Assembly (NCBI GenBank): GCA_016214445.1
Contig: JACROM010000056.1
Coordinates: 1 to 16,057 of the forward strand
DNA: 16,057 bases
Direction of reading: 5' to 3'
Source of the DNA: Microcaldota archaeon
Lineage (GTDB): Archaea > Micrarchaeota > Micrarchaeia > Norongarragalinales > Norongarragalinaceae
A model generated the notes under the pieces. It was not told the origin of the DNA and did no database searches. It was given only the letters and a program-made list of their open reading frames with translations. Each line of letters starts with the position of its first letter. Position 1 is the first letter of the stretch. Position numbers and translations under genes: made by a program. This document shows positions 5,649 to 15,481 of the stretch, one piece after another.

Positions 5649-5670
5649 CCCCCGCCGAGTGTATGTCTCC

Positions 5671-6588
5671 ATGGTTGTTCGGGGAAGCGAAACCAAGAAG
5701 ACTCTTGCTTTGGCAGCTTTCTTGCTCTTTTTAAGCGCTTTCGCCTCGGCTCGGGTCGGAGCCGAGTTGAGCGCGAACCTGGCTGCTAAAATGCAGCTGC
5801 CAGAAGCGCAATCCCGCGCGCCGTCACCTGTGATGATGATTGCGCCCGAGATGCCTCCGAACATCCCGGTGGGCGACATAGTGTCGAGTAAACTCGGAGG
5901 CAGTAGCATCTTCAAGAAATACGACGAAGAAAAACTGTCGGCCGCCTGTTCCAACGAAGGAGAGTTGGTGCAAGTCATATTGAACGATTTGAAGTCAGCT
6001 GAGGAATTCACCAAAGCGTGCGAGCCGATTGTGGTGAGCCTTGAAAAATGCAGGGAGGGCAAGCCAATGTGCGAGCATGTCAAGAGGTTGCCGGGCGAGG
6101 AGGCAAGCTGTCCGCCGGACATAAATGTTCTGGCGGATGCGTGCATGAAGCGTAAGCTGAACTCTCTGCTTGAGCGCCGGGCAGAGGACGAACGCCGTCT
6201 TCCGTTGGAGTGCGAGAAGGAGTGGGAGTACAACAAAAAGAACGTTTTGTTCGGCTGTGAGGAACGGAAAAGGTCTGCCGAGCTTCAATGTAATGAGGAA
6301 GTATTCATGGCGGACTGCATCAAGCACCTCTCCCCCTGTCCTGAATTCACTTTTCCCCAGAATTTCACGGAGAACTGCTTAAAGCAGAACGGAAAGATAG
6401 ACCGCATCATGAATCCGCAGGGGTGTGTCGTTGATGCCAAGTGCATCATACCGCCTTCCTCGCCAACCACTGCTCCTACAGCCTCTCCGGCAGCTGTTGC
6501 CTCGCCTTCGCCGGCAGTGACGCCTACGCCGGTTCCGACCCCTTCTCCGACGGCTGCTGCCTCGGCTGCTGCCTCGCCTACTGTTTAG
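5671..6588 (+). CDS. Cys-rich secreted protein, N-terminal part (cut by in-frame TAG)
   Basis: I do not recognise the family. From the ATG at 5671 the protein begins with a Lys-containing head and a hydrophobic stretch ending in SAFASA, a clear signal peptide with likely cleavage after residue 27. The mature part is helical and charged with about a dozen Cys, often spaced in pairs, such as CREGKPMC. It then enters a Pro/Thr/Ser/Ala linker and stops at TAG (6586-6588). The same frame stays open for another 466 codons and the linker simply continues, so this is most likely the first half of one 771-codon protein. A GTG at 5659 is a less likely start. It sits directly downstream of the thioredoxin-fold gene. 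Confidence 0.72.
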   Translation: MVVRGSETKKTLALAAFLLFLSAFASARVGAELSANLAAKMQLPEAQSRAPSPVMMIAPEMPPNIPVGDIVSSKLGGSSIFKKYDEEKLSAACSNEGELVQVILNDLKSAEEFTKACEPIVVSLEKCREGKPMCEHVKRLPGEEASCPPDINVLADACMKRKLNSLLERRAEDERRLPLECEKEWEYNKKNVLFGCEERKRSAELQCNEEVFMADCIKHLSPCPEFTFPQNFTENCLKQNGKIDRIMNPQGCVVDAKCIIPPSSPTTAPTASPAAVASPSPAVTPTPVPTPSPTAAASAAASPTV

Positions 6589-6699
6589 CCTTCGCCAACG
6601 ATTTCGCCTGCCCCTTCGCCGTCTGCAACGCCCTCGCCAACTGAAACCGCTACTCCCACAGCCACTCCGACTGCCGTTGCCTCGCTTTCACCAACACCT

Positions 6700-7986
6700 T
6701 TGCCTACAACTTCGCCTTCCCCTTCACCGGCTTCAACAGCCATTCCCTCGCCTACTCCTTCACCCTCGCCGGTTCCGCAAGCGGTCGTGAGTGGGCGTCT
6801 GAACCAGTTAACCGGGCTCGTCATTGGAGTTGAACAAACGACTCCAGATCAACTTTGCCGCGAAAAATGGGCCCAGAACAGCAAAAACTACGCGCAATAC
6901 TGCGAGCAATTAAAGACTAACCCGCACATGGCCTGCACCATGGATGACTACATAAAACGGTGCGTTGCCAGAAGGAACGAGCAAAGGGAAAAGGAGTATG
7001 TGGAAGTGGACATGCGCCGAATATGCGAGATTGAAGTGAAGATGAACATGATGCAGTTCGAGCGCTTCTGCAGCGACGCCGAGCGCGGGTATGCGGAGTG
7101 CCTAGAGAAGAGCGAGCAAGGCTGCATTTCAATTGAAAGCCAGCTGGAAAAGTGCAAGGAAATGATGTCGGGCGCGGAAGTCGAGAAGGCGGTCCGGGAA
7201 GTGGTTTCGAACGCCTGCAAGTTCAGGCAGGTAAGGAAGCAAATCAAGGTCACGCCAGTAGAGCTGAATGAGGTGCCTCCGTCAGAAATAGTTCCCGCAG
7301 TAGTGGCTGTGCCCGAAGGAATCAACAGCGAGGACGAGGCGCGCCTTAGGGCGGCTGTGGATGCGGTTGAAGGGTATTACGTCGTCGGAGGTTTGCGCAT
7401 TTACTCGGTAAGGATAAGGGCAAACATGTTCGAGGCGCTCAAGAGCATGGGTTTCGTCAAGGATGTCAAGATCGACCAGGTGTCGCGTACTCTCAGCGCC
7501 GCTGCTAATACGGCGGGGATGGACCGTTTGGGCACGACAATCGAGGTGCTCGAGGCCAGCAGGGCTCTTGTGCCCGCTGATTTCCAGCCGTGGTTCGAGC
7601 ACGAGCAAAGCAACCTGCTTGATGCCAAAGCGGAAATAAACAGCTTGAGCCAGCCAAAAAATCTGGTTTACACTCTGTTGCAGCTGTTTGGTATGCAGGC
7701 GGAACAGGAGAGGAAGGACGCTGCAAGCTTGAGGGAGCAGACAACGAAACTGTTGAGCACCATAGACAGCATTGACAAGCTCGCCCAACAGGTCGGCGAC
7801 ATAAGCGTCCAGGCAGCACTTCTCGGGCAAATATCCGAACTAAGAGAGCAGGCGGGCCAGATAAGCAAAATGGCATCAGATAAGGAAAACAACGCCGGAG
7901 GATTTTTGTCCATACTAGCTAATTTGTTCGGCGGCAAGTTCATGACCGCCACGCCAAAAATGGCGCAGCCGGGCCCAGCAAGATAG
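6700..7986 (+). CDS. Cys-rich secreted protein, C-terminal part (no own start)
   Basis: Continuation of the same frame after the TAG at 6586. The first formal start codon is a TTG at 6700, inside the Pro/Thr/Ser linker, and the next is a GTG at 6787. Neither has a ribosome binding site or signal peptide, so this is not a convincing separate gene. The part has a second Cys-rich helical domain (about 6835-7230) that resembles the first in style, which suggests an internal duplication. Next comes a compact segment reading YYVVGGLRIYSVRI then VKDVKIDQ, slightly like an I9-type propeptide fold (weak). A long coiled-coil region full of Gln, Glu and Lys and a hydrophobic, Gly-rich end follow. The second half may be lost or made only by readthrough. 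Confidence 0.62.
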   Translation: MPTTSPSPSPASTAIPSPTPSPSPVPQAVVSGRLNQLTGLVIGVEQTTPDQLCREKWAQNSKNYAQYCEQLKTNPHMACTMDDYIKRCVARRNEQREKEYVEVDMRRICEIEVKMNMMQFERFCSDAERGYAECLEKSEQGCISIESQLEKCKEMMSGAEVEKAVREVVSNACKFRQVRKQIKVTPVELNEVPPSEIVPAVVAVPEGINSEDEARLRAAVDAVEGYYVVGGLRIYSVRIRANMFEALKSMGFVKDVKIDQVSRTLSAAANTAGMDRLGTTIEVLEASRALVPADFQPWFEHEQSNLLDAKAEINSLSQPKNLVYTLLQLFGMQAEQERKDAASLREQTTKLLSTIDSIDKLAQQVGDISVQAALLGQISELREQAGQISKMASDKENNAGGFLSILANLFGGKFMTATPKMAQPGPAR

Positions 7987-9394: not shown

Positions 9395-10528
9395 TCATTT
9401 CAGTATTCCCGCCAATTCAGCGACGTCCTTGTCGCCCCTGCCGCTCAAGTTGATTACGACGATGTCGTCAGGTTTCATGGACTTCGTCAGCTCCAAGGCG
9501 TAAGCAACAGCGTGCGAGGACTCCAATGCAGGAATGATTCCTTCGCGTTCGCTCAGGATGCGGAAACCTTCAAGAGCTTCCGAGTCGCCGACGGAACAGT
9601 ATTCCGCAAGGCCGATTTCTTGGAAGAACGCGTGCTCTGGCCCGACAGCAGGGTAATCCAAGCCAGCAGCGATGGATTGGGTGGGCGCTATCTGCCCGTC
9701 GCCGTCCTGCAGTACTCTTGTTTTCGCGCCGTGCAGTACGCCTACGCTTCCCCTGCAAAGCGAAGCAGCGCCGTACGCTTCCACTCCGTACTTTTTCACC
9801 TTCAAATCGTCTTTGAATGGGTAGAACATTCCCATGGCGTTCGAGCCTCCCCCGACGCAGGCCACCAGAGCGTCAGGAAGACGGCCTTCGAGCTGGAGTA
9901 TCTGTTTTTTGGTCTCGTCGCCTATCACCCTCTGGAAGTCGCGCACCATTTCCGGGTAAGGAGTGGGCCCTACAACCGAGCCTATCATGTAGTAGCTGTC
10001 CGGGTTCGCCACGTAATCGCGGAGGGCTTCGTTGATAGCGTCCTTGAGTGTGCGCGAACCGGAGTCAACGGGCCGCACTTCCGTGCCAAGCAGCTTCATC
10101 CTCAAGACATTGAGTTTTTGCCGCTCGATGTCCTCGGAGCCCATGTAGACTATGCACTTCAGCTTCAGCAGGGCGCATGCAGTTGCAGCTGCAACTCCGT
10201 GCTGGCCAGCTCCTGTTTCGGCTATTATCCTGCTTTTGCCCATCGTCTTTGCGAGTATTGCCTGGCCAAGGGTGGTGTTTATCTTGTGCGAGCCAGTATG
10301 CAGCAAGTCCTCCCTCTTCAAATAGATTTTGCAGTCGTAGGTTTCCGAAAGACTCTTGGCGTAATAGAGCGCGCTCGGCCTGCCCGCGTACTTTTCCAGG
10401 TAGAACTTTAATTGTTCTTGGAACTCGTAGTCCTCCTTTGCCTTGTAGTACGCTTCCTTCACTTCCTTCAGCGGTTCAACTAGCGTTTCCGGAACGAACA
10501 GCCCGCCGAATTTTCCGAAGTAAGTCAT
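9395..10528 (-). CDS. trpB: Tryptophan synthase beta chain (TrpB1 type)
   Basis: PLP enzyme that condenses indole and serine to tryptophan in complex with TrpA. The 377-residue product starts MTYFGKFGG, the usual TrpB1 opening. It has HTGSHKINT with the PLP-binding Lys82, AETGAGQHG with catalytic Glu104, the phosphate-binding [10 protein letters not shown] and SGRGDKDV near the end. The start ATG overlaps the stop codon of the second micro-ORF (ATGA). It is of the TrpB1 type that pairs with TrpA, not the longer TrpB2. All key residues are present and the gene looks intact. Confidence 0.96.
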
Positions 10529-10599
10529 ACGTTATCATTCCGTTTCAGTTCGCCTTTCGACACCAACGTCTGAAAACGCGCCGCGTTCAACTCTGTCAT
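10525..10599 (-). CDS. Micro-ORF 2 between trpC and trpB (24 aa)
   Basis: ATG to TGA, 24 codons, beginning [12 protein letters not shown] and ending [11 protein letters not shown]. Its start overlaps the stop of micro-ORF 1 and its stop overlaps the trpB start, both as ATGA, so ribosomes could pass from trpC to trpB by reinitiation. It is clearly related to micro-ORF 1 and its second half matches the trpC C-terminus (KGELKLEDIT). The difference from micro-ORF 1 includes a two-codon insertion that keeps the frame. There are no Trp codons, so it is not an attenuation leader peptide. Whether the peptide itself has a role is unknown. Confidence 0.5.
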
Positions 10600-10664
10600 G
10601 TGTTGTCCTTCGGGTTGAGTTCGCCTTTCAGCGTCTGCGCCTGTGTTGCGTTCAACTTCGTCAT
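10596..10664 (-). CDS. Micro-ORF 1 between trpC and trpB (22 aa)
   Basis: ATG to TGA, 22 codons, beginning MTKLNATQAQT and ending [10 protein letters not shown]. The start overlaps the trpC stop (ATGA) and the stop overlaps the start of micro-ORF 2 (ATGA). The C-terminal half is nearly the trpC tail, LKGELKLEDIT, which suggests origin by duplication of the trpC end. It is too short for normal gene finders. Translation is inferred from the overlaps and the frame-preserving divergence from micro-ORF 2. Confidence 0.5.
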   Translation of the reverse strand: MTKLNATQAQTLKGELNPKDNT

Positions 10665-11458
10665 GTGATGTCCTCCAGTTTAAGTTCGCCTTTCAGAAGG
10701 GCTGTACCGACAAGCACTCCGTCCAAGCCAAGAGCTTTCGCTTCCTCGACCTGTTCTTTTTTGCTGAAACCGCTTTCCGCTATCGCCGGCTTCTTTTTTT
10801 CCCCTGCACTTGTCCAAATTGGAAGTTCGGTGTCCGGCCGGGTGGCGTCAAACCTCGTTAACTTGGACTCGTGTATTACGCTCTTGTAGTGGCTCACATT
10901 TAACTCTAGCGTGTCCAGGTTTCGGTTGTTTATCCCTACAATATCGGCGTCGGTTTCCATTGCTTTAGCGTATTCTTCCTTGGTGCGTGTTTCCAGAACG
11001 ACCTCGAGCCCGAGCGAGTGCGAGTGCGCTATCATTTCGTCAAGCAGGTTGTCTGCAAGGTTGCGGTCGAATATCCCGCTTATAAGCAGAACGGCATCAG
11101 CGCGGCCGGAGTAGGCTTCAAGCTGTTTTGGCGACAGGACGAAGTCCTTAGCCAGAACCGGCAAGCCGGTTTTGCCTGCTGCTTCCAGGTTCTCCAGCCT
11201 TCCCCTGAACACGCTGTTCGCGCACAACACGCTTATCGCGCCTGCCCCTTTCGACGCGTACTCTGCAGCCAGTTGTTCAGAGTTTCCGCTGAAAAGGTCC
11301 TTCTCCGTAGGCGAGGCGGGCTTGATTTCCGCTATGATTGTGAACTTTTCGAGCTGCTTCTTCAGGGATTTTTTCTCCTTGCCTGCTGGCGGGAGTTCGT
11401 AATACCCGTCCGAAATGCTTTCCCTCGTCTTGCCTATTATTTCCTCAAGGAAACTCAT
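10661..11458 (-). CDS. trpC: Indole-3-glycerol phosphate synthase
   Basis: TIM-barrel enzyme that closes the indole ring from carboxyphenylamino-deoxyribulose phosphate, with loss of CO2. The 265-residue product shows IIAEIKPASP (Glu44, Lys46), VLAKDFVLSPKQL with the general acid Lys104, VVLETRTKEE with a catalytic Glu, and GINNRNLDTL. Near the end are AESGF and GVLVGTALLKG, which bind phosphate. A charged insertion of about 30 residues (near 203-230) before AESGF is longer than usual. The start overlaps the trpD stop by ATGA. It is a monofunctional TrpC; no TrpF domain is fused. Confidence 0.95.
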   Translation of the reverse strand: MSFLEEIIGKTRESISDGYYELPPAGKEKKSLKKQLEKFTIIAEIKPASPTEKDLFSGNSEQLAAEYASKGAGAISVLCANSVFRGRLENLEAAGKTGLPVLAKDFVLSPKQLEAYSGRADAVLLISGIFDRNLADNLLDEMIAHSHSLGLEVVLETRTKEEYAKAMETDADIVGINNRNLDTLELNVSHYKSVIHESKLTRFDATRPDTELPIWTSAGEKKKPAIAESGFSKKEQVEEAKALGLDGVLVGTALLKGELKLEDIT

Positions 11459-12426
11459 TTGCTCGCCTCAATGTATTTGGTCATTTTCCCCAAAGCTCGC
11501 CCGCTTTCAATGGCTTCTTCCGCCATAGCCGCGCACTCGCCCAATTCCGCTTTTCCGGCAGCGTAAAGCGCTAGCGAAGCGTTAAAAGCAACGGTTTCGC
11601 TTTCGGCGCAGTTGCCCCCCAGCGAATTCAAGACTTTTTTCGCGCTTTCGGCAGCGTTTGACACTTTCAACTCGCTCATTTTCGGTTCGGGCGCAACAAT
11701 TGTGAACTCCCTTATTCCCGAAGGCGTTACTTCAAGCAAGCGCGTTTCGCCGTACGCTTCATCCATTCCGTTGCCGTGCACCACCATGGCGCGTTCGGTT
11801 CCCAAAGCCTTCGCTGCTTTCGCCATGATGTCCTGCGCTTCCCTGCCATAAGCTCCGATGACTTGTTTCTTCGCGCCGGCCGGGTTGGTAAGTGGCCCGA
11901 GCATGTTGAAAATGGTTTTGACTCCCAGCTCCTTTCGTACAGCTGCCACGTGCCTCATGGAAGGATGGTAGAGCGGAGCGAACATGAAACCGAAACCAAT
12001 TCGTTCGATTAGGTCGGTTGTTTTTTCCGACGTTACCCGGATGTCAGCACCCAACGCTTCTAGCACGTCAGCAGACCCGCATGCACTTGAGACGCTCTTG
12101 TTGCCGTGCTTTGCAACTGGCACGCCGCAGGCCGCGGCAACGAAAGCAGCTGCTGTTGAAATGTTGAACGTGCCAGACGAGTCGCCGCCTGTTCCGCAGG
12201 TGTCCATCACTTCCGCCCGAGGGCTTATGCGAACGGAGTGCGAGCGCATGCTTTGCGCGAAACCAACCAGTTCATCCACGCTCACTCTTTTTGCGTTCAA
12301 CGCCAGCAAAAAATCCTTCATTTGTCCGCCGGAAAGCGAAGGCTCAAGAAAGGAGTCCGCGAGTGTTTCGGCTTCCCGAACAGCTAGGTCTTCCTTCCGT
12401 CTTATTTTCTCCAGCAGGCCGTTCAT
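11455..12426 (-). CDS. trpD: Anthranilate phosphoribosyltransferase
   Basis: Transfers phosphoribose from PRPP to anthranilate. The 323-residue product carries MDTCGTGGDSSGTFNIST (near 74-91) with the PRPP-binding GTGGD at 78-82 and VAKHGNKSVSSACGSADVLE. MFAPLYHPSMRHV and FNMLGPLTNPA follow, all in family order. Length is normal and the gene looks intact. Start and stop both overlap the neighbouring genes through ATGA (trpG before it, trpC after it). Placing trpD third, before trpC, differs from the Methanothermobacter order, where it is last. Confidence 0.96.
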   Translation of the reverse strand: MNGLLEKIRRKEDLAVREAETLADSFLEPSLSGGQMKDFLLALNAKRVSVDELVGFAQSMRSHSVRISPRAEVMDTCGTGGDSSGTFNISTAAAFVAAACGVPVAKHGNKSVSSACGSADVLEALGADIRVTSEKTTDLIERIGFGFMFAPLYHPSMRHVAAVRKELGVKTIFNMLGPLTNPAGAKKQVIGAYGREAQDIMAKAAKALGTERAMVVHGNGMDEAYGETRLLEVTPSGIREFTIVAPEPKMSELKVSNAAESAKKVLNSLGGNCAESETVAFNASLALYAAGKAELGECAAMAEEAIESGRALGKMTKYIEASK

Positions 12427-12998
12427 TTTACCAGCCCTAAAAAGTTTTTGCAGATTTTCACGCCGTCCTCGGTGGCGAAGGACTCCGGATGGAACTGCAC
12501 CCCGTAAAGCGGGCGTTCCTTGTGCTGAAGAGCCATGATTTCACCGCCGGTTTTTGCTGTCACCTCGATGCATTCAGGAACGCTTGAAGGGTCCACCACA
12601 AGAGAATGGTACCTAGCAGCGCGGAACGGGTTGCTTACTCCGGCGAAAATGCCCTTTTCGTCGTGCGTTACCTTGCTTGTCTTGCCGTGAACTGGTTTCG
12701 CTCGTATTATCTTCGCTCCGGATGCGTGCGCTATTCCCTGGTGGCCGAGGCAAACCCCCAGCAGCGGCGCTTCGGTTCTTTCGATAACTTTGCTGCATAC
12801 GCCGAAGTCAGCTGGTTTCTCCACTGTACCCGGGCCCGGCGAGATTACTATCGCTTCCGGCTTGGCCCTTTCAACAAGCTCAAATGAAACGTTGTTCCTG
12901 AACACCAAACAGTCCGCGCCCAAATCCTGGAACAATTGAACCAAATTATAAGTGAAGGAGTCGAAGTTGTCCAGAACCAAAAGTTTTACTTGTTTCAT
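12423..12998 (-). CDS. trpG: Anthranilate synthase glutaminase subunit
   Basis: Class I glutamine amidotransferase that supplies ammonia to TrpE. From the ATG at 12998 (191 residues) it reads MKQVKLLVLDNFDSFTYNLV, then ISPGPGT (oxyanion region), GVCLGHQ with nucleophile Cys83, VHGKTSKV, RYHSL and VQFHPES with His170 and Glu172. I chose 12998 because it gives the family start and has an AGGTG ribosome binding site six bases upstream. A GTG at 13034 in the same frame would overlap trpE and add an unlikely leader. A para-aminobenzoate role (PabA) is possible, but the trp context favours TrpG. Its partner TrpE appears broken here. Confidence 0.94.
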   Translation of the reverse strand: MKQVKLLVLDNFDSFTYNLVQLFQDLGADCLVFRNNVSFELVERAKPEAIVISPGPGTVEKPADFGVCSKVIERTEAPLLGVCLGHQGIAHASGAKIIRAKPVHGKTSKVTHDEKGIFAGVSNPFRAARYHSLVVDPSSVPECIEVTAKTGGEIMALQHKERPLYGVQFHPESFATEDGVKICKNFLGLVK

Positions 12999-13021
12999 TT
13001 CGTTGCACCTGTTTGTTTCAT
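12995..13021 (-). CDS. Micro-ORF between trpE and trpG (8 aa)
   Basis: ATG to TGA, encoding MKQTGATK. It starts on the trpE stop codon and ends on the trpG start codon, each as ATGA within AAATGAAACAA. The first three residues repeat the trpG start MKQ, so it looks like a duplicated gene junction. It also contains the trpG ribosome binding site, so it may be a simple by-product. Confidence 0.35.
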   Translation of the reverse strand: MKQTGATK

Positions 13022-13413
13022 TTCTTTTCACCAAGGCACTCCAGCAGCACAGCCGCCTTTTGCTCGGTTTCCTCGAACTCCTTTTCCGGTATGGAATCGT
13101 ATACTATGCCCGCGCCCGCCTGCACGAAAGCGTTCTCTCCGTCCGAGAAGAGCGTCCTGATGGAGATAGCGAAATCGCAGCTTCCGTCCAAAGAGAAAAA
13201 CCCTGCTGCGCCGCCGTACGGCCCGCGGGCCTGCGGCTCGAGCGAATCTATTATCTTCATGGCTGAAAGCTTGGGCGCTCCGGTCAAGGTTCCTGCTGGA
13301 AAAACCGCCTTGAGCGCGTCAACGCTGTTCCCGTACAACGTGCCTTGCACTTCGGATACGAGATGCTGGACGTGGCTGAACTTCTTCACTTCTGAAAACC
13401 TTTTCACTTCCAC
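13018..13413 (-). pseudogene. trpE: Anthranilate synthase component I, C-terminal fragment
   Basis: Carries the last third of the chorismate-binding domain: VEVKRFSEVKKFSHVQHLVS, FPAGTLTGAPKLSAMKIIDSLEP, RGPYGG and AGAGIVYDS. It begins, in another frame, only a few codons beyond the point where the N-terminal fragment stops. Compared with intact TrpE, about 35-40 residues that should lie between GTRPRGKT and VEV are absent, including the conserved LLADEKERAEH/MLVDLARND stretch that builds the active site and metal site. A GTG at 13413 could start this piece, overlapping the other fragment's stop, but two separate chains would still lack the missing motif. Confidence 0.8.
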
Positions 13414-14238
13414 TTTCCGGTTTTTCCCCGCGGGCGCGTTCCGGCAATCGGGAAGGTGGTTGCCTTCCCTTCTTCCACGCGCACCAGCATTTCCGGACTT
13501 GAACCCACTATCTCGCGTTTCCCCATTTTCAGGAAGTACTGGTAGGGCGAAGGGTTCCTTTCCCTCAAGGCCTTGTAGAACGGCATCTTGCTTCCCCTGA
13601 ACGTGACCGGAAACTTTCTAGAGAGCACTATCTGGAACGCGTCGCCTGCAGCTATCCTCTCCTTTGCCTTGAGCACGCTCTCGCAAAAAGCTGCTTTGGT
13701 GAAGAACGGCTCGTGCATTTCAGCAGACGTCTCTCCTTCCTCTGGCTCCTGCCGCATCATCGCGTTGAATTCCTTTGTCCGGTCATCGCCGTATGACACG
13801 TACCTGGCTTTTCCCTTGAGGTGGTCGAAAACTATGCCGTCCAAATACAGTCCGAACTCCATGTCCGGGAAAGTGCCCTTCTTGGGAGTGATGTTCTCTA
13901 TGTAGCGGATGGAGTCGTGCGACAAATACCCCACGAGGCCGCCCCTGAACCCTGTGCGCTGCGAGGAAAGGCAGAAAGTTTTCAGGAAGGAGAATGGGTC
14001 CTCCTCCCTTTCCTCACCCCTGAAGTATATGACTCCGCTTTTAACGCGCAACATTTCTTCCGGTTCGAAGCCCAAAAACGAAAAGCGCCCGAGCGAGCCA
14101 TCCTGCTCGAACGATTCAAGGAGGAAGCACGATTCGCTCCGCGAGTAGACGCGTTCAAAAACTTCTACCGGACTAAGCTTGATGTCAAGGCTGTAGGAGT
14201 AGAATTCGTTCCTGTGGCCAAAGTAAACCGCCTTCCAT
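13404..14238 (-). pseudogene. trpE: Anthranilate synthase component I, N-terminal fragment
   Basis: First two thirds of TrpE, which makes anthranilate from chorismate and is feedback-inhibited by tryptophan. In the frame ending at 13404 it shows SCFLLESF (the tryptophan-binding LLES element), RFSFLGFEP, GGLVGYLSHDSIRYIE, GDAFQIVLSRKF, NPSPYQYFL, GSSPEMLVRVE and PIAGTRPRGKT. It then ends GKWK and a stop. That frame has no ATG, GTG or TTG before 14075. An ATG at 14238, well placed for the TATA box, is in another frame, and removing one G at about 14231 joins it to give MEAVYFGHRNEF. So a one-base shift near the start and an internal deletion both damage the gene. Confidence 0.8.
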
Positions 14239-14812: not shown

Positions 14813-15481
14813 ATGCGTTTGATGCCTTTCGTGATGCTCGGTTACCCGACCTTGGCCGATTCCCTGAAGGTTTTGGATTTCCTTTCCGGACGCGACGTAA
14901 TCACTGAAACCGCCCTGCCTTCGCCAGAAGTGAAAGGAAAACTTGCAAACTACCATGAGCGTGCAATAGAGGCAGGTGTTACGGAGGAAAAGGTTTTCGA
15001 AGTGTTCGACGACTGCCGGCCGAATTTCCTCATGCTCCGTTCAAAGCAAACTGACGCCCAGCTCCGGAAAATAAGCGAAGCATTCGACTATGCCTGCGCG
15101 CCAGTCAACGCGACAGAACTCGGGAAATACAATTCAGGCCGCACACGCTTCGTGGCCAAGGTTTCGCCCACGCACATCGACCGAGATGCCATCCTCTCTT
15201 CCAGGGGGTTCGTTTACCTCCAATGCGCACGGAGCCGGGGGGAGAAAATGTTCGGAGAAAAGGAACTTTATGAGGCGGTAAGGACAATCCGCGCAACGCG
15301 CTCTTCGCTGCCCATAATAGCAGGCTACGGCGTAAAGAGCGCGGATGACGCTGCCAAGCTGGCCTTCCTCGGAGCTGATGTGGTGGCTGTTGGCTCCGAA
15401 AGCGTAAAGGCGCAGGAAGCCGGTTTTGAGGCGTTTGAGGCGTTCTGGAGACGGTTTGAGAGTTCACTTCCAGTGGAATGA
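14813..15481 (+). CDS. Divergent TrpA paralogue, active site partly lost
   Basis: A 222-residue TIM-barrel protein related to TrpA: MPFVMLGYPTLADSLKVLDFL, then DVITETALPSPEV where TrpA has DGFELGIPFSDPVADGP. Next comes GFVYLQCARSRGEKMFG, then the phosphate-binding IIAGYGVKSADDAAK and VVAVGSESVK. The phosphate site is kept and one Glu (Glu32) fits catalytic Glu49, but the FSDP motif with catalytic Asp60 is gone and the protein is about 27 residues shorter than the TrpA here. So it probably binds a phosphorylated indole precursor or similar ligand without the TrpA reaction, or does a different reaction. It begins one base after the trpY-like stop and must share its transcript. Function is unknown. 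Confidence 0.8.
   Translation: MRLMPFVMLGYPTLADSLKVLDFLSGRDVITETALPSPEVKGKLANYHERAIEAGVTEEKVFEVFDDCRPNFLMLRSKQTDAQLRKISEAFDYACAPVNATELGKYNSGRTRFVAKVSPTHIDRDAILSSRGFVYLQCARSRGEKMFGEKELYEAVRTIRATRSSLPIIAGYGVKSADDAAKLAFLGADVVAVGSESVKAQEAGFEAFEAFWRRFESSLPVE

Follow-up and report, generated by a model that had tools for sequence, protein, structure and literature searches.

What are two tandem short reading frames doing between trpC and trpB in the trp operon of an archaeal MAG (1.29 Mb, 140 contigs), and how did they come to be there? The operon lies on the minus strand of the window (the whole 16,057-nt stretch of DNA that we analysed) in the order trpE-trpG-trpD-trpC-trpB-trpA, as assigned with Pfam. 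trpC (10661..11458) encodes indole-3-glycerol phosphate synthase (Pfam IGPS, profile 37-244 of 254) and trpB (9395..10528) the tryptophan synthase beta chain (Pfam PALP, canonical start). The TrpC C-terminus reads KGELKLEDIT, and the TGA stop of trpC sits within an ATGA that opens micro-ORF 1 (22 codons, 10596..10664); micro-ORF 1 is linked in the same manner to micro-ORF 2 (24 codons, 10525..10599), and micro-ORF 2 to trpB, all on the minus strand. The 4-nt stop/start overlap that marks an ATGA-coupled operon junction is thus found three times between trpC and trpB, at 10664-10661, 10599-10596, and 10528-10525. Coordinates, lengths, and overlaps agree with an initial annotation, made from the sequence alone, that had described 22- and 24-codon tandem ORFs chained by three ATGA overlaps and free of Trp codons; neither peptide contains Trp.

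We compared the parts of the junction with one another. A 35-nt repeat is present in three copies (10524-10558, 10595-10629, and 10660-10694, at spacings of 71 and 65 nt), and a 65-nt repeat in two copies of 75% identity. The layout of the junction is T1-A1-T2-A2-T3, where T stands for a 33-nt tail (KGEL....*, with ATGA at its end) and A for the head of a micro-ORF. T1 (10661..10693, minus strand) is the trpC tail itself (KGELKLEDIT*); T2 (10596..10628) and T3 (10525..10557), of 10 residues each, end micro-ORFs 1 and 2 on the same strand. A1 (36 nt, 10629..10664, minus strand), the 5' part of micro-ORF 1, resembles only A2 (42 nt, 10558..10599, minus strand), the 5' part of micro-ORF 2, which carries a two-codon insertion relative to A1. 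The start-to-start periods are 65 and 71 nt, and because each is 2 modulo 3, the ATGA overlap recurs in the array. The two micro-ORFs align with a local score of 26, whereas none of 2000 dinucleotide shuffles exceeded 16.5, and the trpC end aligns to micro-ORF 1 with a score of 22 (maximum 16 in 2000 such shuffles); the match of the trpC end to micro-ORF 2 alone is weaker, its score of 16 being reached in 2 of 2000 shuffles. A chance origin of the repeats is excluded, less strongly for trpC against micro-ORF 2 alone.

The initial annotation had the micro-ORFs built from the trpC 3' end. This describes the T tail, which is the only part common to trpC and the micro-ORFs, but not A1 and A2, which are unlike trpC. 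As candidate sources of A1 and A2, the part of trpC upstream of the tail bears no detectable resemblance to them, and the trpB start is unsupported (148 and 294 of 2000 shuffles reached the score). The trpC tail is itself odd. It extends 10 residues past a GTALL-type motif and is the shortest of the 98 tails that could be measured among 120 TrpC proteins; the other 97 have 13 or more residues. Part of the original C-terminus of TrpC may thus have been lost or replaced as the array formed, so that origin from the trpC 3' end may be only part of the account.

We then asked how the junction looks in relatives. TrpC matches were obtained in 9 of the 60 relatives searched (the source MAG, G000, counted in); trpB lies in the same locus as trpC in five other genomes, and the junction was read in four. 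Three of these come from the same family and lack micro-ORFs: G010 has a gap of 8 nt (locus L002), G008 an ATGA overlap (L003), and G001 a GTGA overlap (L004). In the fourth, from another family (L008), a long ORF separates trpC and trpB, and the micro-ORFs are likewise absent. From the tight junctions of the three family members, the ancestral trpC-trpB junction was therefore tight. As far as visible, the array appears to be lineage-specific, and its absence from relatives fits a recent origin. Relatives with directly overlapping trpC and trpB are part of what the initial annotation had named as counting against it, and they speak against a conserved function. A TrpC search (3946 proteins among the 7999 candidates scored) returned no close strain, the best other identity being 50%, and a TrpB scan of genome contigs (80 loci) returned no genome of the same species (best identity 65%).

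Do the peptides themselves matter? An alignment of micro-ORFs 1 and 2 over 69 sites shows 18 differences (5, 4, and 9 at the three codon positions), which amount to 5 synonymous and 8 non-synonymous codon differences. Under a neutral simulation with substitutions only and no indels, 16.7% of runs preserved both open frames and their chaining. The substitutions look neutral, and the trpC-trpB locus alone gives no proof of selection. Neither micro-ORF matched Pfam, and the marks of a conserved micropeptide, retention in relatives and purifying selection, were seen in neither; most probably, both peptides are by-products. The suggestion that they are new micropeptides runs against both the codon differences and their absence from three family relatives. 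The view that they are not attenuation leaders was borne out: trp leaders are short ORFs with Trp codons ahead of the operon, accompanied by alternative RNA hairpins, and these ORFs are operon-internal with no Trp codon. Attenuation or a structured RNA found no support either in the local fold (z 0.72) or in Rfam, which had no match in the whole window.

How could the operon have tolerated such an insert? The available text of PMC10666635 states that coupling in H. volcanii and E. coli requires overlaps or very short gaps, that reinitiation is lost in H. volcanii when the spacer is 22-23 nt, and that coupling needs no more of the upstream gene than its last 15 nt. Because coupling has this requirement, a 132-nt insert would uncouple trpB unless it is read as overlapping ORFs. 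We favour, with moderate confidence, a duplication across a coupled stop/start junction that the operon could tolerate since termination-reinitiation would continue through the chained frame. The trpC/trpB ATGA junction would have been duplicated locally and then once more, adding 65 + 71 nt, and each period of 2 modulo 3 would again have set a stop over a start, giving two short ORFs with 4-nt overlaps. The ribosome would finish trpC, restart at micro-ORF 1, finish it, restart at micro-ORF 2, finish it, and restart at trpB, which would stay coupled despite standing 132 nt further from trpC. The duplication and the chain are legible in the DNA itself; that coupling is in use, and that the insert was tolerated for its sake, is suggested by the literature on archaeal coupling and by a genome-wide lean in duplication periods (below). 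We infer that the chain from trpC to trpB is a preserved relay; trpB may instead start independently.

We scored Shine-Dalgarno (SD)-like sites against an assumed anti-SD sequence, an exact search having found no 16S 3' end in the MAG. The duplex energies were -9.3 kcal/mol for micro-ORF 1, -3.7 kcal/mol for micro-ORF 2, and -5.1 kcal/mol for trpB, so scored, and micro-ORF 1 has the strongest SD-like site among the seven operon starts scored. Genome-wide, the mean was -6.44 at 49 ATGA starts versus -2.65 at random sites.

The trpE-trpG junction of the same operon contains a parallel case. trpE (13018..14075, minus strand) is present as two ORFs (14075-13404 and 13413-13018; Pfam chorismate_bind 2-96 and 138-257), and trpG (12423..12998, minus strand; Pfam GATase) has a start that is ATGA-chained to an 8-codon micro-ORF, MKQTGATK (12995..13021, minus strand), itself bounded by ATGA at both ends. 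Here, GGTGAAAAGAAATGAAACAA ACA followed by GGTGCAACGAAATGAAACAA makes up a 23-nt duplication that spans the ATGA junction. The N-terminal side of MKQTGATK is like TrpG (MKQ) and its C-terminal side like TrpE (GEKK), and in the relative G001 trpE and trpG are separated by a plain 9-nt gap. This junction is the cleanest head-plus-tail chimera produced by junction duplication.

Other features of the window deserve mention. At 13404-13413 on the minus strand the trpE frame changes and chorismate_bind 97-137 is missing, while G001 has trpE in one frame: the split is a real loss or an assembly error, and the first enzyme of the operon looks broken in the assembly. A 222-aa ORF beside the operon (14813-15481, plus strand) resembles, by eye, a TrpA-type barrel. 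A low-complexity repeat coding for Pro/Thr/Ser (6504-6737) runs over ORFs 5658-6588 and 6699-7986 in different frames, and these two ORFs are possibly one frameshifted gene.

We wondered how common such duplications are in the genome. A local direct-repeat scan (lag 12-170) over 1,274,273 bases of the MAG gave 581 hits versus 1 in a block-shuffled control. These merged into 184 regions, 94 within genes, 34 intergenic, and 56 over a gene boundary, with gene starts and calls taken from a crude ORF caller in this and all other genome-wide counts. The 56 boundary duplications (29 over a stop, 19 over a start, and 8 over both) correspond to ∼44 per Mb. The same scan applied to controls gave lower densities: 10.6 per Mb in 80 loci drawn from other genomes (7 cases over 660,812 bases) and 12.5 per Mb in G001 (1 case over 80,000 bases). 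Assembly scaffolding was rejected as a general source: duplicated flanks were found at 1 of 13 N runs (L160, 6549).

The periods of the 55 boundary duplications without N (the case at L160 6549 was dropped) lean towards the value that keeps coupling. At close same-strand junctions (n = 30), the period modulo 3 was 2 in 18 cases, 0 in 10, and 1 in 2 (2 versus 1, p 0.0004; 18/30 versus one third, p 0.0025). In other contexts (n = 25) it was 2 in 11, 0 in 7, and 1 in 7 (2 versus 1, p 0.48), and the difference between the two contexts was not significant (Fisher p 0.29). Short ORFs bridged 15 of 32 duplicated gaps, versus 9.1 expected from a crude shuffle, and 29 of 241 gaps without duplication, versus 26.9 expected. 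Duplicated junctions were bridged in 12 of 20 cases when the period was 2 modulo 3 and in 3 of 12 otherwise (p 0.076). Among 40 short ORFs that start on an ATGA-type overlap and end at most 60 nt from the next start, 6 end on an exact 4-nt overlap, a count in which the start nearest the wanted offset was chosen, favouring its own peak. Affected pairs with Pfam support include the GatC and GatB junctions, ATP-grasp/succinyl-CoA-ligase-like, NuoE/NuoF-like, and nucleotidyltransferase/phosphomannomutase-like pairs, and micro-ORF chains also occur in the gatC/gatB, ATP-grasp/succinyl-CoA-ligase-like, and NuoE/NuoF-like operons. Taken together with the three 4-nt overlaps and the strong SD-like site before micro-ORF 1, the period lean upholds, in part, the initial annotation's proposal that the micro-ORFs are reinitiation steps.

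Between gatC and gatB (L160), the gatC tail is duplicated (lag 77), as is the gatB head MKIGLETH (lag 80, 27/27 identical), and the gene in between looks by eye like gatA. In a Lachnospiraceae MAG (L071, 3796-3905), a period-37 tandem repeat lies right after the stop of the gene preceding trpB.

Many boundary duplications have as their insert a GC-rich hairpin element, of which related copies occur elsewhere in the MAG. Among 107 element-like hairpin loci, flanking repeats (score at least 15) were found in 34 and in no shuffles, a share that is biased because the queries were taken from such loci. Two hairpin-element probes each matched 4 of 30 genomes, all of the same family: the element family is present, between duplicated gene ends, in the source MAG and three relatives. 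Of 20 flanking stretches taken from G008, G001, and G010, 14 carried direct repeats (score at least 15), with a shuffle maximum of 13. The trpE-trpG junctions of G010 (L272) and G008 (L260) carry a hairpin element and a duplicated trpG head; an extra ORF there, immediately before trpG, consists of the trpG head and an element-coded tail.

In the source MAG, codon differences between the two copies were mostly synonymous in the hairpin class (61 synonymous, 27 non-synonymous; 25 cases) and mostly non-synonymous for the remaining inserts, the trp array among them (12 synonymous, 30 non-synonymous; 14 cases); this comparison assumes a neutral share of 25% synonymous codons. On these counts, hairpin-class copies look like diverged functional alleles and the other inserts like neutral copies. 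Selection on micropeptides is not the source of the hairpin-class pattern, because the pattern is also present without a chained ORF. Hairpin elements between duplicated gene ends were noted at L178 (10353-10543), L224, L189, L205, L160, L266, L271, and other loci, and the flanking duplicates often encode the same C-terminus with synonymous changes. At L178, 10 of 10 differences between the copies fall at third positions; at L266 (G008), a peptide-anchored comparison counted 18 differences over 75 nt, with 14 synonymous and 0 non-synonymous codons. The trp array stands outside this class: no further copy of A1 or A2 was found in the MAG, the best other match of the array being 18 nt long (E 0.016).

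Could the array simply be a neutral leftover, a tandem duplication whose frames stayed open by chance while trpB initiates at its own SD-like site? This may be so, though we would not expect it. In its favour, 17% of the neutral simulation runs end with the two ORFs still open and chained, the ratio of 5 synonymous to 8 non-synonymous codons agrees with it, the non-hairpin duplications of the genome are as a group neutral-like (12:30 in 14 cases), the SD-like energy of trpB (-5.1) is fair, and relatives lack the micro-ORFs. Against a neutral leftover stand three exact ATGA links, the A1/A2 indel that spans exactly two codons, the further independent case at trpE-trpG in the same operon, and, at close same-strand junctions, 18 periods of 2 modulo 3 against 2 of 1 modulo 3. 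A putative tuning device, in which selection shaped the chain to damp or boost reinitiation step by step and so set the TrpC:TrpB ratio, seems unlikely to us. With SD-like energies of -9.3 and -3.7 at micro-ORFs 1 and 2, entry into the chain and the loss per step could differ; yet the array is lineage-specific, and no purifying signal is seen at trpC-trpB.

That the trp array is a fossil of the hairpin-element insertions that duplicated gene ends elsewhere in the genome family is quite improbable. Elements do lie between duplicated gene ends at many loci, including trpE-trpG of G010 and G008, and AGACGCTG, with which A1 ends on its right, is similar to the right end of one element family, CAAGACGCTG (22 copies, 2.6 expected). 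But A1 and A2 occur nowhere else in the MAG and form no hairpin, and the trp copies have diverged neutrally, as against the largely synonymous divergence within the hairpin class (12:30 versus 61:27 codons). Functional micropeptides like Streptomyces trpX/TrpM, which also lies between trpC and trpB, are very hard to credit: the location is the same and both frames are open, but the peptides have no Pfam match, differ in a neutral-like way, are absent in relatives, and, at 22 and 24 residues, are repeats of each other.

Duplication across a coupled junction, tolerated because the chain preserves termination-reinitiation, could be one instance of a family-wide mode, which we put forward with more doubt than belief. 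Boundaries of coupled genes would expand by duplication, with a palindromic element or none, and would be kept only if an ATGA-chained micro-ORF results, turning operons into strings of stepwise restarts. Hairpin-class duplicates would be laid down, or retained, synonymously recoded; in this scheme trpC-trpB would be an old case that lacks an element, and trpE-trpG would be another. If true, this would be a simple route to new short ORFs in operons, since a chained ORF would follow automatically whenever an ATGA junction is tandemly duplicated at a period of 2 modulo 3. It would also yield a prediction for the number of consecutive terminations and restarts that an archaeal ribosome can manage, and small intergenic ORFs of such genomes may in many cases be side effects of coupling rather than peptide genes.

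How does the array compare with known systems? Small mobile palindromes that carry or extend reading frames are known, Rickettsia palindromic elements among them. As far as the available texts describe them, MITEs, REPs, and RU elements (PMC10969869, PMC3733652, PMC2759123) resemble the hairpin class in being short, palindromic, repeated at gene ends, and able to enter reading frames; the hairpin class differs in lying between long, often recoded duplicated gene ends, of which we found no mention in those texts, and the trp array holds no such palindromic element. The small ORF trpX/TrpM of Streptomyces coelicolor lies inside a trpC-x-trpB-trpA locus and is likened to our micro-ORFs by position; TrpM, in the accessible part of PMC5036795, is a protein with a mutant phenotype, whereas the micro-ORFs are tandem copies of the trpC end and show no constraint. 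Among titles and abstract openings of mainly open literature, we found no description of chained micro-ORFs born from junction duplications; to that extent the initial annotation was right to know of no described counterpart, but counterparts exist in the same genome and even in the same operon. A further close parallel is termination-reinitiation at 4-nt overlaps as described in the available portions of PMC6728339 and PMC10666635, which shares with the trp array the ATGA overlaps on one mRNA in an archaeal operon. Those reports concern pairs of genes, whereas trpC-trpB interposes ORFs of 22 and 24 codons, so that three successive restarts would be needed. The trpC-trpB array is thus made of ordinary parts in an unusual combination: ATGA coupling created by junction duplication, one of several such cases in this genome.
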